Of a DNA stretch of 64,000 nt, positions 55,965 to 59,223 are shown one piece after another. Within the stretch, counting starts at the first letter, position 1; each line of letters opens with the position of its first letter. Location: the NCBI RefSeq assembly GCF_018798885.1, contig NZ_CP076361.1, forward strand, positions 930,001-994,000, given 5' to 3'. The translations under genes were made by a program, and so were the position numbers. The notes beneath the pieces are model-generated. The model made no database searches. It had not been told where the DNA came from and saw only the letters and a list, made by a program, of their open reading frames with translations. Origin of the DNA: Gemmobacter fulvus. Lineage in GTDB: Bacteria; Pseudomonadota; Alphaproteobacteria; Rhodobacterales; Rhodobacteraceae.

Positions 55965-57038
55965 TCAGGCGACGCCTCCGTCAATCAGACGGCGGGCGAG
56001 ACGGCCATAGGCCTCTGCAATCGGGCCGTCTCCGGCGGCAATCGGGGTTCCGGCATCGCCCGCCAACCGCACCGAAAGATCGAGCGGCAATTCCCCCAAA
56101 AACGGCAAGCCCAGCCGCTTGGCATCCGCCGCCACCCCGCCATGCCCGAAGATATGCGCCTCATGCCCGCAGTTGGGGCATATATAAGAGGACATGTTTT
56201 CGATCAGGCCCAGCACCGGCGTCTTGAGCTTCACGAACATATCAAGCGCCTTGCGCGCATCCAGCAGCGCCACATCCTGCGGCGTGCTGACCACAATCGC
56301 GCCGCTGACGGCAAAGCGCTGGCTCAGCGTCAGCTGAATATCCCCGGTGCCCGGCGGCAGGTCGATCAGCAGCACATCCAACTCGCCCCAGGCCGTCTGC
56401 TCGATGAGCTGTTGCAGCGCGCCCATCAGCATCGGGCCGCGCCAGACCACCGCCTCGTCCTCTTTCAGCATGAAACCGATCGACATGACCGTGACCCCAT
56501 GCGCCTGCAACGGGATCATGGTTTTGCCATCCGGCGAGGCGGGGCGCTTGTTCACCCCCATCATGCGCGGCTGGCTGGGGCCATAGATATCGGCATCCAG
56601 CAGGCCGACCCGTCGGCCCTGCCGGGCCAAGGCCACCGCAAGGTTGGACGAGACGGTCGATTTGCCCACCCCGCCCTTGCCCGAGCCGATGGCGACAATG
56701 TGGTTGATGCCGGAGACGCGTTTCGGCCCGCCCTGATGCGGTGTGGCATGGCCGCCGATCTTCAGGCTTGGCGCAGCGGGTTTTGCGGCGGGGCCATGCG
56801 CCGTCATCACCACCTGCACCTTGTCGACCCCCGGCAGCGCCCGCAGCGCCGCCTCGGCCGCCGTCTGCACCGGACCAAAGGCACGGGCATCCTCGGGCGT
56901 CGGTGCCTCGATCACAAAGCTGATCAGACCGCCTTCAACCCGCAGCGCCCGAATCAAATCGCGCGAGACAAGATCCCCGCCGCCCGGCACCGCAATATGG
57001 GCCAAAGCGCCCAGAACCTGTTCTCGTGACAGAGCCAT
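55965..57038 (-). CDS. mrp: Mrp/ApbC family iron-sulfur cluster carrier ATPase
   Basis: 357 residues. Mrp/NBP35-type P-loop proteins carry Fe-S clusters to target proteins in the cytosol. An N-terminal DUF59 (MIP18-like) domain ([24 protein letters not shown], residues 5-80), then the deviant Walker [22 protein letters not shown] (about 114-134), [25 protein letters not shown], and the CxxC that binds the bridging cluster in [17 protein letters not shown] (about 283-290). The ATG at 57038 follows a GGAGG Shine-Dalgarno. Confidence 0.94.
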
Positions 57039-57181
57039 GCAAAATCCTCCGCATTTTGGCGTGCAGCCTTGTTCAGCTTGCATGGAAGAGCAAGGTCTGC
57101 TTTACCAACTGCTCAAAATTCATGCGAAGCGCCTGTTTACGTTAGGGAAAACCTCATCCTCAGCCATGCGGCACCCGCATA

Positions 57182-57217
57182 GCTGCAATGCAGCAGAGCG
57201 GGATTGTGCAAGTGCAG
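57182..57217. promoter_or_regulatory. Two-part motif upstream of the DUF1127-sRNA operon
   Basis: Palindrome GCTGCAATGCAGC (57182-57194), then GCAAGTGCAG (57208-57217). The same palindrome and the reverse complement of the second part stand side by side upstream of pyruvate carboxylase (61796-61818). Confidence 0.4.
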
Positions 57218-57232
57218 CAATTGGCCCATGTT
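57204..57232 (+). promoter_or_regulatory. Weak candidate promoter for the DUF1127-sRNA operon
   Basis: TTGTGC (57204-57209), 17-bp spacer, CATGTT (57227-57232), which would start transcription about 70 bp before the DUF1127 ATG. The homologous R. sphaeroides operon is under heat-shock sigma factors RpoHI/RpoHII; this hexamer pair is only a guess. Confidence 0.3.
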
Positions 57233-57307
57233 ATCCCTAACAGCACGGCAGAGACCGAAAGGGATCACGAAAGACCGCGCTTTACGAGATAACCTGAGGC
57301 TGATGAA

Positions 57308-57523
57308 ATGGCATATGTAAATTCCACCCGCGTTGCTCAAATGAGCTTTGCAGACCGTCTGTCGGCTGCATTCGACGGTGTGAAGCAGGCAATCGCCCGC
57401 CGCGCCATCTACAAACAGACCGTGCGGGAGCTGAACGCGCTTTCGGCCCGTGAGCTGGCCGATCTTGGCATCCATCGCTCCATGATCACCCGTCTGGCCC
57501 GCGAAGCGGCCTACGGCAAATAA
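57308..57523 (+). CDS. DUF1127 domain small protein (CcaF1/YjiS-like)
   Basis: 71 residues, basic. The N-terminal 25 residues are variable; residues 26-66 are the DUF1127 arginine-rich motif (RRAIYKQTVRELNALSARELADLGIHRSMITRLAREAAYGK) with its L..Ls.rEL.DiGl.R..I pattern. In R. sphaeroides the equivalent gene RSP_6037 encodes CcaF1, a small RNA-binding protein that affects maturation of the CcsR sRNAs encoded directly downstream. Here too the sRNA array begins 11 bp after the stop, so this protein is a strong CcaF1 candidate. GAGG Shine-Dalgarno 10 nt before the ATG. Confidence 0.92.
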   Translation: MAYVNSTRVAQMSFADRLSAAFDGVKQAIARRAIYKQTVRELNALSARELADLGIHRSMITRLAREAAYGK

Positions 57524-57534
57524 GTTTCTTTGCG

Positions 57535-57602
57535 AGGCTCCACCTCCTCCCGGGGCCTGTAGCAAAAGCGGCGGCACTTCTCCTCCTCCCTGGTGCCGTC
57601 GC
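57535..57602 (+). ncRNA. CcsR-like sRNA unit 1 (hairpins 1 and 2)
   Basis: Hairpin 1: AGGCTCC/GGGGCCT with one G-U, loop 57542-57551. Hairpin 2: 10-bp stem 57568-57577 with 57593-57602, one G-U. Starts 11 bp after the DUF1127 stop. The loop can pair with GGGAGGAGG, an extended Shine-Dalgarno. Confidence 0.8.
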
Positions 57603-57641
57603 CCTTTATACCGGAAGCCCTTGCTTCCTTTCGCATTGCTC

Positions 57642-57707
57642 GGCCCCTCCTCCTCCCTGGGCCTGATGCAAAAGCGGCGGTCCCCTCCTCCTCCCTGGGA
57701 TCGTCGC
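57642..57707 (+). ncRNA. CcsR-like sRNA unit 2 (hairpins 3 and 4)
   Basis: Hairpin 3: GGCCC/GGGCC, 57642-57663. Hairpin 4: 11-bp stem 57674-57684 with 57697-57707, two G-U pairs. Linker CTGATGCAAAAGCGG resembles that of unit 1. About 40 bp separate it from unit 1. Confidence 0.8.
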
Positions 57708-57743
57708 ACCCTTTCCGGGCCATCTGGCCCAAACGAGATCCTC

Positions 57744-57808
57744 GGCCCCTCCTCCTCCCTGGGCCAAGGGTTCCGCGGCGGCCCCCTCCTCCTCCCTGGG
57801 GTCGCCGC
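57744..57808 (+). ncRNA. CcsR-like sRNA unit 3 (hairpins 5 and 6)
   Basis: Hairpin 5: GGCCC/GGGCC, 57744-57765. Hairpin 6: 11-bp stem 57775-57785 with 57798-57808, one G-U. Hairpins 4-5 and 6-7 are near-identical blocks 101 bp apart. Confidence 0.8.
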
Positions 57809-57844
57809 ATCCATTCCGGGCCATCTGGCCCAAACGAGATCCTT

Positions 57845-57910
57845 GGCCCCTCCTCCTCCCTGGGCCTTGGGACAGGCGGTAGCCCCCTCCTCCTCCCTGG
57901 GGCGTGCCGC
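57845..57910 (+). ncRNA. CcsR-like sRNA unit 4 (hairpins 7 and 8)
   Basis: Hairpin 7: GGCCC/GGGCC, 57845-57866. Hairpin 8: GCCCC/GGGGC (57882-57886 with 57899-57903), extended by GCGG/CCGC across an internal loop. Confidence 0.8.
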
Positions 57911-57918
57911 AACCATAG

Positions 57919-57991
57919 CAACCGCCCCTCCTCCTCCCTGGGCGGTTGTTCACAGAGCGGCGGCACCCCTCCTCCTCCCTGGGTGTCGCCG
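57919..57991 (+). ncRNA. CcsR-like sRNA unit 5 (hairpins 9 and 10)
   Basis: Hairpin 9: perfect 9-bp stem CAACCGCCC/GGGCGGTTG (57919-57948). Hairpin 10: 11-bp stem 57958-57968 with 57981-57991, one G-U, which doubles as the operon terminator. Confidence 0.8.
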
Positions 57992-58000
57992 TTTTTGTTT
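57958..58000 (+). terminator. Intrinsic terminator of the DUF1127-sRNA operon
   Basis: The stem of hairpin 10 is followed directly by TTTTTGTTT (57992-58000). No other T run follows any hairpin in the array, so one primary transcript from the DUF1127 promoter is expected. Confidence 0.85.
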
Positions 58001-58065
58001 GAAATCCTCCCCTTGCATCCCCCGATCCCGGCGCGCATCGTCCGCAGCACTCGCAGCTTGCCGGA

Positions 58066-59223
58066 ATGATCATGCGCGCCTCCCTGTTTTCTGCCGCCCT
58101 TGTTGCCGCCCTTGTCGGCTATGGCTCCACCATTGCCCTGGTGCTGGCCGCCGCTGCCGCCGTCGGGGCCAGCCCGGCGCAGACCGGATCCTGGGTGCTG
58201 GCCATCTGCCTGGGCAAGGCGGCGGGGTCGGCGCTGCTGTCCGTCTCGTCGCGGGTGCCGGTGGTGCTGGCCTGGTCCACCCCCGGGGCCGCACTGATTG
58301 CCGCCACCGAAGGCGTGACGATGCCGCAAGCCGTGGGGGCCTTTGTGCTGACCGGCCTGCTGATTGCGCTCACCGGCACGCTGAAACCGTTGGGGCGGCT
58401 GGTGGCGCGCATCCCGGACAGCATCGCCGCCGGAATGTTGGCCGGGGTGCTGCTGCCGTTCTGCCTGAAGCTGCCTGCTGCGACGCAAGGGATTCCGGCG
58501 CTGATTCTGCCGGTGATCGGGCTCTTTGCGCTGGTGCGGCTGCGCAATCCGGCGCTGGCCGTTCTGGCCGCACTTGCGCTGGGGCTGGCCGCGGCCTTTG
58601 CCAGCGGGCTTGCCACGCTGCCGCCGCTGCGCCTGCCACTGCCGCGGCTGACGTTCATCTGGCCCGAATTCGATCCGATGGTGCTGATCGGGTTGGCGCT
58701 GCCGCTGTATCTTGTGACGATGGCCTCACAGAACCTGCCCGGTTTCGCCACCCTGCGCGCGGCGGGATACGAGCCGCCGGTGCGCGCGGGCCTGACGGTG
58801 ACGGGCGGGATTTCGGCGCTGATCGGGCTGTTCGGGGCACATACGATTTCAATGGCCGCCATCACAGCCGCCATTTGCCTCGGCGATGACGTGCATCCCG
58901 ACCGCAACCGCCGCTGGCAGGTGGGTCTGGTCTATGCCGCGATCTGGGTGGGGCTGGGCTTGCTGGGGCCGCTGATCCTGTCGCTGCTCGCGGCGCTGCC
59001 GCCCGAGTTGATCACCGCAATTGTGGCGCTGGCGCTGCTTGGCCCGTTCATGGGGGCGGCAACGGCGGCGTTTCAAGCCCCTGAAACCCGCTTCGCAGCC
59101 GCGATCACGCTGGTCGTCACCGCCTCGGGCGCGCCTGCGCTTGGCATTGGCGCGGCCTTCTGGGGCTTGCTGGCCGGGCTGGCCTTTCACGCGGCAGAGC
59201 AGTTGCGCCGCCCCACCGCGTGA
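58066..59223 (+). CDS. BenE family benzoate/H+ symporter-like transporter
   Basis: 385 residues, about 11-12 hydrophobic segments. The BenE pattern is clear: VVLAWSTPGAALIAA, RIPDSIAAGMLAGVLLPFCLKLP, LVTMASQNLPGFATLRAAGYEPPVRAGLTVTGGISALIGLFGAHTISMAAITAAICLGDDVHPDRNRRW. Family members take up benzoate; no ben or cat catabolic genes are nearby, so the substrate may be another aromatic acid. Two close ATGs (58066, 58072) are possible; the first is listed. Convergent with uvrD, 8 bp apart. Confidence 0.9.
   Translation: MIMRASLFSAALVAALVGYGSTIALVLAAAAAVGASPAQTGSWVLAICLGKAAGSALLSVSSRVPVVLAWSTPGAALIAATEGVTMPQAVGAFVLTGLLIALTGTLKPLGRLVARIPDSIAAGMLAGVLLPFCLKLPAATQGIPALILPVIGLFALVRLRNPALAVLAALALGLAAAFASGLATLPPLRLPLPRLTFIWPEFDPMVLIGLALPLYLVTMASQNLPGFATLRAAGYEPPVRAGLTVTGGISALIGLFGAHTISMAAITAAICLGDDVHPDRNRRWQVGLVYAAIWVGLGLLGPLILSLLAALPPELITAIVALALLGPFMGAATAAFQAPETRFAAAITLVVTASGAPALGIGAAFWGLLAGLAFHAAEQLRRPTA

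Follow-up and report, generated by a model that had tools for sequence, protein, structure and literature searches.

The hairpin array behind a small DUF1127 gene in this Gemmobacter genome raises two questions, namely whether it represents an enlarged version of the CcsR small-RNA family, as the first-pass annotation had claimed, and what such an array might do. In the window, by which we mean the whole 64-kb stretch of DNA that was analysed, CCTCCTCCC was present as ten exact copies at positions 57543-57979, all of them on the + strand and each in a hairpin loop, and no other exact copy was found on either strand. In 100 dinucleotide shuffles of the window the motif occurred 0.67 times on average and six times at most, and none of the shuffles reached ten copies. 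In the entire source genome (4.68 Mb, seven contigs) the two strands together contained 41 exact copies, including the ten of the array, versus 26 copies of the reversed motif. This indicates that the motif is not notably common outside the array.

Anatomy of the array

When the hairpins were folded singly, all ten motifs were located in loops. Hairpins 3-10 have the 12-nt loop CUCCUCCUCCCU in common, and the loops of hairpins 1 and 2 measure 10 and 13 nt, respectively. The earlier description of ten motif hairpins, eight of them with one and the same 12-nt loop, was thereby reproduced. As a total, however, ten fell short, since three more hairpins without the motif are located between units 1 and 2, 2 and 3, and 3 and 4 (Table 1). 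The mean unpaired probability was 0.97 for the motif bases and 0.30 for the rest, with the lowest value for a motif (0.84) in hairpin 1. Furthermore, the array stretch of 482 nt folded far better than its shuffles (z -9.95; 0/100 shuffles). The minimum-energy fold of the whole transcript does not consist of ten separate hairpins; units 3 and 4 are so similar to each other that arms of hairpin 5 become mixed with those of hairpin 7, and the motifs are still open in this fold. Long open reading frames across the array (e.g. 57137-57916, minus strand) were taken as by-products of the GC-rich repeats.

The array indeed starts directly behind a DUF1127 gene, as had been stated: the stop codon ends at 57523 and the match to the CcsR1 model begins at 57524. 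A DUF1127 match was present in all 11 genus genomes, and the best relatives of the encoded protein, among the best 80 of 266, were those of G. lutimaris and G. caeni (75% identity each) and G. aquatilis (73%).

Table 1. Features of the DUF1127 locus and its hairpin array (positions in the window).
Feature	Position	Strand	Support or remark
Mrp/NUBPL-type P-loop protein, divergent upstream neighbour	55968-57083	-	
Promoter-like element TTGTGC-N15-CCCAT	57204-57229	+	78 nt ahead of DUF1127 start codon
DUF1127 small protein, CcaF1-like, 71 aa	57308-57523	+	PF06568 51.2 bits, cut-off 23.3
Unit 1 = CcsR1, hairpins 1 + 2	57524-57607	+	Rfam RF02791 91.4 bits, cut-off 65.3
Spacer hairpin 1, GGAAGC-CCTT-GCTTCC, no aSD motif	57613-57628	+	fold -8.7 vs shuffled mean -1.7
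Unit 2, hairpins 3 + 4	57633-57712	+	CcsR1 model 51.5 bits, under cut-off
Spacer hairpin 2, GGGCC-ATCT-GGCCC	57717-57730	+	fold -10.7 vs shuffled mean -3.7
Unit 3, hairpins 5 + 6	57737-57813	+	CcsR1 model 41.6 bits, under cut-off
Spacer hairpin 3, sequence identical to spacer 2	57818-57831	+	fold -10.7 vs shuffled mean -4.8
Unit 4, hairpins 7 + 8	57838-57910	+	folds; inside ar14 match 57834-57954
Unit 5, hairpins 9 + 10, no spacer hairpin ahead	57915-57997	+	CcsR1 model 42.4 bits, under cut-off
Hairpin 10 + T-run: aSD loop + probable intrinsic terminator	57958-58000	+	11-pair stem, then TTTTTGTTT
BenE-family transporter, downstream neighbour of the array	58066-59223		

Assignment to the CcsR/cuckoo family

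The covariance-model comparison with Rfam that had been proposed for the CcsR assignment bore it out, in that unit 1 lies above the gathering cut-off of the CcsR1 model (Table 1). It is the only unit to pass this cut-off, and for unit 4 no separate CcsR1 match was detected up to an E-value of 0.1. As a control, four relatives (L001, L003, L005 and L006) were scanned with the same model. In Luteovulum azotoformans (L005) and in Cereibacter johrii (L006), which we take to be a close relative of R. sphaeroides, the first unit scored 106.2 bits and the other three units 39.4-54.1 bits. In the Gemmobacter loci L001 and L003 the first unit scored 73.2 and 98 bits, respectively, and the remaining CcsR1 matches were under the cut-off. 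Since the scores of the later units in the present array resemble those of their counterparts in the control loci, we conclude that the curated CcsR1 model describes the first unit. Throughout the array we found the CcsR-type layout of two hairpins per unit with CCUCCUCCC in each loop, together with the features that define the cuckoo RNAs, i.e. anti-Shine-Dalgarno (aSD) loops, diverging stems and a varying number of hairpins.

With the ccaF1-CcsR1-4 locus of R. sphaeroides the present locus has in common the 71-aa DUF1127 gene, the two-hairpin units with CCUCCUCCC loops in the 3′ UTR and the CcsR1 score, but it has five units where that locus has four, and units 4 and 5 are joined with no spacer hairpin in between. 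CcsR1-4 are described as deriving from the ccaF1 3′ UTR (PMC8625941). The cuckoo RNA family and the CIN1 locus (Reinkensmeier and Giegerich 2015) likewise combine the same loop motif with variable stems and a DUF1127 neighbour, and when judged by the 2015 family definition as rendered in citing papers, no testable feature sets the array apart. For this family, section 2.7 of PMC3927594 mentions a 'varying number of hairpin modules' and terms the motif an anti-SD sequence. The raw sequence confirms that the array is a CcsR/cuckoo array, an ordinary and well-formed member of a known family.

Other families were less fitting. The ar14 model (RF02344) matched within the array just above its cut-off (61.4 bits, cut-off 58.8), several pairs of its first hairpin being broken, and it was above the cut-off in G. 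lutimaris (L001) as well. A separate ar14 gene was rejected, as the match lies inside the array and runs across a unit border (unit 4 plus hairpin 9). A simple consensus scan of positions 57050-58150 revealed no sigma-70-like site and, together with the location of the match, this led us to file the array as CcsR/cuckoo rather than ar14. The Sinorhizobium RNAs of this family (ar14/NfeR1, SmelA075 and SmelA099) share their loop motif with the array and contain three or four hairpins each, but they are separate genes in rhizobia, whereas the match reported here is part of a longer array; NfeR1 is described as a stand-alone gene of three hairpins under a sigma-70 promoter of its own (PMC7143759). 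The Scr3202 model remained under its cut-off in the Rfam scan. Matches to 6C RNA (RF01066) were weak (32.6 and 32.2 bits, cut-off 47) and were rejected. This RNA, which has an actinobacterial range, resembles the array in having two hairpins with C-rich loops, but the loop itself differs, and it is at most an analogue.

On these grounds we consider it likely that the locus is the local counterpart of ccaF1-CcsR, whose 3′ UTR would serve as a precursor from which CcsR-type sRNAs are released by cleavage, and these sRNAs would block Shine-Dalgarno sites. The course of events, from transcription and the sigma factor to processing and target pairing, is modelled on relatives. A stress promoter at the upstream element listed in Table 1, probably of the RpoH type, would drive one transcript comprising the DUF1127 mRNA and five two-hairpin sRNA units in its 3′ UTR, with an intrinsic terminator at the end. 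If the events resemble those in R. sphaeroides, RNase E would then cut the spacers with participation of the DUF1127 protein, thereby freeing single or paired units, and the exposed CCUCCUCCC loops could base-pair with Shine-Dalgarno regions, so that the mRNAs concerned would be translated less under stress.

Array size among relatives

The relatives used for comparison were the best 80 of 266 confirmed ones, found via the DUF1127 protein. For each locus the exact motifs downstream of the gene were counted as a chain that breaks at gaps of more than 200 nt, which undercounts at least locus L019. Among these best 80 of 266, ten was the commonest count (14/80), followed by eight (13 loci), 12 (10 loci), one (8 loci), nine (7 loci) and seven (6 loci). 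Counts of 14, 11, 5, 2 and 0 were found in three loci each, counts of 13, 6 and 4 in two loci each, and a count of three in a single locus. Ten or more motifs were thus present in 32/80 loci. At least eight were present in 52/80, so that arrays of this length behind this DUF1127 gene are common among the closest named relatives. In C. johrii (L006) and L. azotoformans (L005) there are eight motifs each, and the present array is one unit longer than that of C. johrii. The claim of more than four units therefore holds to the extent of one unit; what does not hold is an expansion relative to kin. Hairpin number as a novelty was rejected, five units can no longer be regarded as an expansion of a four-unit norm, and the array is ordinary in size for its kin.

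A survey of 296 family genomes, the source genome included and drawn from a larger group, was in line with this: 227 had one or more motif pairs with a spacing of 35-47 bases. Six such closely spaced pairs occur in the source genome, at least 29 of the 296 genomes have more by an eye count, and the largest number was 17. The backwards-pattern control also matches inside arrays (five times in the source genome) and gives no clean measure of chance. The genome with 17 pairs carries them at G156:C1:334997-335888, where those listed lie in near-identical repeats; this array is larger than the one in the window.

Within the genus, nine loci including the present one were aligned by eye with ten hairpin positions, some loops being changed. 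Three of these loci are L001-L003; L090 and L091 were not part of the alignment and were viewed apart. The exact-motif counts of the nine loci were 10, 10, 9, 10, 9, 8, 9, 10 and 9. They undercount the hairpins because the loops of several relatives have changed. In G010 (87% complete) the array is shortened and partly decayed, and G008 (82% complete) has, as its sole DUF1127 match, a two-hairpin locus resembling the paralogs.

This comparison of unit number in related genomes also bears on the possibility, raised in the first-pass annotation, that the repeats are an assembly artefact, and on that of a chance low-complexity repeat. The array does contain a 101-bp tandem repeat. Positions 57711-57770 and 57812-57871, which lie 101 bases apart and include the identical spacer hairpin, agree in 56/60 bases, and the relatives differ here. 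For units 3 and 4 this is a sign of recent, partial local homogenisation. Nonetheless, since ten hairpin positions recur in nine independent assemblies of the genus, the present one included, an assembly artefact is very unlikely, and with a chance expectation of 0.67 motifs we assign practically no weight to either form of this explanation.

Selection on stems and loops

The stretch TTTTTGTTT directly follows the stem of hairpin 10 on its 3′ side, which suggests that the last aSD hairpin probably also serves as a terminator. This is in agreement with the earlier proposal that the array ends in an intrinsic terminator, and hairpin 10 was missed by our terminator scan because the latter admits only loops of 3-8 nt. 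A T-run after the last exact motif was found in 32/61 relatives' arrays with at least six motifs, showing that a last aSD hairpin doubling as terminator is common in relatives, but not general.

The terminal hairpin was aligned across 33 sequences (29 distinct; alignment A1), comprising 27 of 28 picked relatives (L005 being left out), five genus loci and the window. With the structure of the window as reference, and with relatives outside the genus that had been chosen for motif plus T-run, 99.0% of the cells were paired and 8/11 pairs had changed on both sides. None of 500 shuffles reached this paired share or these both-side changes, and 3/500 reached the number of pair types. In addition, stems were scored for 633 hairpins from the window and 80 related loci. 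A score of at least 8 was obtained for 62% of the 633 true arm pairs versus 10% of 5570 within-locus swapped pairs. The loop motif is largely kept while the stems change, which demonstrates selection on both stems and loops. A kept loop with freely changing stems is also what section 2.7 of PMC3927594 describes for the cuckoo family.

Conceivably, the hairpins could act mainly as a structured 3′ UTR that protects or terminates the DUF1127 mRNA, with the loop motif being incidental. The terminator-like hairpin 10 would suit such a role. Yet protection alone hardly explains why the loop motif is largely kept while the stems change, and we regard this explanation as highly improbable.

Spacer hairpins and putative processing of the precursor

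The three motif-free hairpins occupy the borders between units 1 to 4, and no spacer hairpin is present between units 4 and 5. In the majority of rows of the genus alignment spacer hairpin 1 has changed in sequence without losing its pairing, L088 being a row in which it is absent, and the Gemmobacter spacers in general retain their pairing through sequence change in most alignment rows. Across the window and 80 related loci, the gaps from motif to motif fell into 155 long ones (60-95 nt) and 374 short ones, with 16 in between. The long spacers folded with a mean of -12.4 kcal/mol versus -7.2 kcal/mol for 20 shuffles of each spacer, and 98.7% of the spacers exceeded the mean of these shuffles in stability. 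These GC-rich spacers fold anyway, as 85% of the shuffle means reach -4, and in some relatives remnants of stems or degenerate hairpins may account for part of the excess. Ahead of the spacer hairpins no AU-rich RNase E site was recognised: the A+T content in six bases was 0.50, with a weak U/C preference and no clear motif. Our guess is that the spacer hairpins mark sites of processing. A description of such hairpins was not found in the literature consulted; Reinkensmeier and Giegerich 2015, Billenkamp 2015 and Gruetzner 2021 may cover them or the range of copy numbers.

Processing also distinguishes the preferred reading from one in which the array stays largely intact as a sponge, whose ten identical motifs would titrate either Hfq or the DUF1127 protein, with feedback on RNA processing as a result. 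In favour of such a role are the many identical loops on each transcript and reports that CcsR RNAs interact with Hfq and that the amount of CcaF1 affects CcsR maturation, an excess interfering with it (PMC8307010). In R. sphaeroides, however, the homologous precursor is described as being cut into separate CcsR RNAs rather than persisting as an intact long RNA (PMC10253847, PMC8625941), and spacer hairpins at unit borders would fit a processed precursor better. We therefore consider a sponge quite unlikely and retain the processed ccaF1-CcsR-type precursor. The part played by the DUF1127 protein is itself a matter of debate in the published accounts, in which CcaF1 is elsewhere reported to promote CcsR maturation (PMC10253847). 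RNA binding and sRNA maturation are ascribed to CcaF1, but the RNA-binding role of DUF1127 proteins is disputed. According to PMC12501420, CcaF1 complements an Agrobacterium defect ascribed to protein-protein contact with PhoR, and no RNA binding was seen for Salmonella YjiS.

Upstream element and DUF1127 paralog

We take the promoter-like element ahead of the DUF1127 gene to be RpoH/sigma-32-like, its CCCCAT presumably resembling a sigma-32 -10 element. In the nine-genome alignment it forms the conserved block GGATTGTGCAnnTGCAGnAnnTnnCCCATnTT, with CCCAT changed in L084. The strict pattern TTGTGC-N12..16-CCCAT was found within 260 nt upstream of the gene in 32/80 relatives, at 55-133 nt before the start codon, versus 0/1082 control stretches from the same loci; the looser TTG-N16..19-CCCAT was found in 36/80 relatives versus 21/1082 control stretches. 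C. johrii (L006) is among the relatives with the strict element. A promoter of the RpoHI/RpoHII type has been reported ahead of ccaF1 in R. sphaeroides (PMC10253847). The RpoH1/RpoH2 promoters given in PMC4843759 (CTTGAA or CTTGCC, N15-16, CCTATAT or CCTATCT) are poorly matched by the element.

A 26-nt form, TTGTGC-N4-GCAG-...-CCCAT, occurs at exactly two places in the source genome, the array locus and a DUF1127 paralog. In the 11 genus genomes searched, 15 of the 16 occurrences counted lie beside DUF1127 genes, the exception being in G005:C13, and none was listed for G002. Being nearly confined to DUF1127 loci, this form may represent a promoter more specialised than an ordinary RpoH site. 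Just upstream of the element, at 57163-57193, there is an inverted repeat, ATGCGG-CAC-CCGCAT, which may bind a regulator, and similar but less perfect repeats are present upstream of the paralogs L092-L098.

The paralog of the source genome (L097; G000:C1:1673912-1674115, minus strand) has the upstream element as at the array locus. Seven such second DUF1127 genes were compared. In the genus relatives' loci L092, L093, L094 and L096 the gene has two aSD hairpins and then a terminator-like stem behind it, L095 and L098 are without hairpins, and in L097 the hairpin loops have decayed. The strict promoter pattern was present at five of the seven (L092, L093, L094, L097 and L098), but not at L095 and L096. 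For the conserved RpoH-like element and a DUF1127 paralog bearing it, no description was found in the literature consulted.

A tentative and rather speculative extension would be that the module consists of two anti-SD hairpins plus a cut-marking spacer hairpin, and that in Gemmobacter the array is one of two loci that make up a circuit. A DUF1127 paralog with a single two-hairpin unit would then be driven by the same dedicated promoter, and the loop dose per stress event would depend on how many units there are and on whether the second locus has been gained or lost. Testable handles on precursor cutting and dosing are provided by the spacer hairpins and by the upstream element common to the two DUF1127 loci, and these also bear on the role of small DUF1127 proteins.

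Candidate targets of the loops

We searched the 11 genus genomes for the perfect loop complement GGGAGGAGG at 2-9 nt before an ATG, with the reversed motif GGAGGAGGG as control. The complement was not enriched in these genomes (66 matches versus 67 for the reversed motif). After removal of repeats with the same first 60 bases, a site was accepted as a gene start if its frame stayed open for 80 codons or more, showed codon bias and was preceded by an in-frame stop; 20/62 distinct sites passed for GGGAGGAGG and 17/64 for GGAGGAGGG, again without enrichment. This filter is crude, as it rejected some convincing starts on both sides, and some sites are antisense in arrays. Independent support for the anti-SD mechanism was consequently not obtained in this test, whose outcome is compatible with specific targets that are bound through imperfect pairing.

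An unspecific mode of action could also be imagined, in which the loops occupy Shine-Dalgarno sites at large and slow down translation in general during stress, instead of acting on chosen mRNAs. Unenriched perfect complements at gene starts would fit such pairing, and so would the term anti-SD sequence used in PMC3927594. On the other hand, relatives have defined targets: flhR mRNA is reported for CcsR1-4 (PMC8307010), and for NfeR1, whose aSD motifs act redundantly on target mRNAs, most predicted targets are stated to code for transport proteins (PMC7143759). Moreover, the amount of array RNA would be small next to all ribosome sites. We consider global titration unlikely, and favour the blocking of Shine-Dalgarno sites of particular mRNAs by processed CcsR-type units.

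Several candidates recurred among the genomes, but the reversed-motif set also contains recurrent orthologs, so that recurrence as such is not specific. The first is a small protein whose N-terminal start (ADPxEGxWxT) is leader-like; in 6/11 genomes it has a perfect 9-base loop complement before its start codon (L129 at G000:C1:1002122-1002139, minus strand, as well as L120, L122, L125, L128 and L133). The second is PaaN (TIGR02288), found in the source genome (L130:319-1968) and in G003, G005 and G006, and solute-binding proteins and an ABC-permease-like protein were named by eye. In five genomes (G000, G002, G003, G006 and G009) the gene for the small leader-start protein resides on the same contig as the array, at a distance of ∼12-21 kb. 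It may also be mentioned that paaN, a gene of phenylacetate degradation, has the loop complement, and that the array adjoins BenE, a gene of the benzoate-transporter family.
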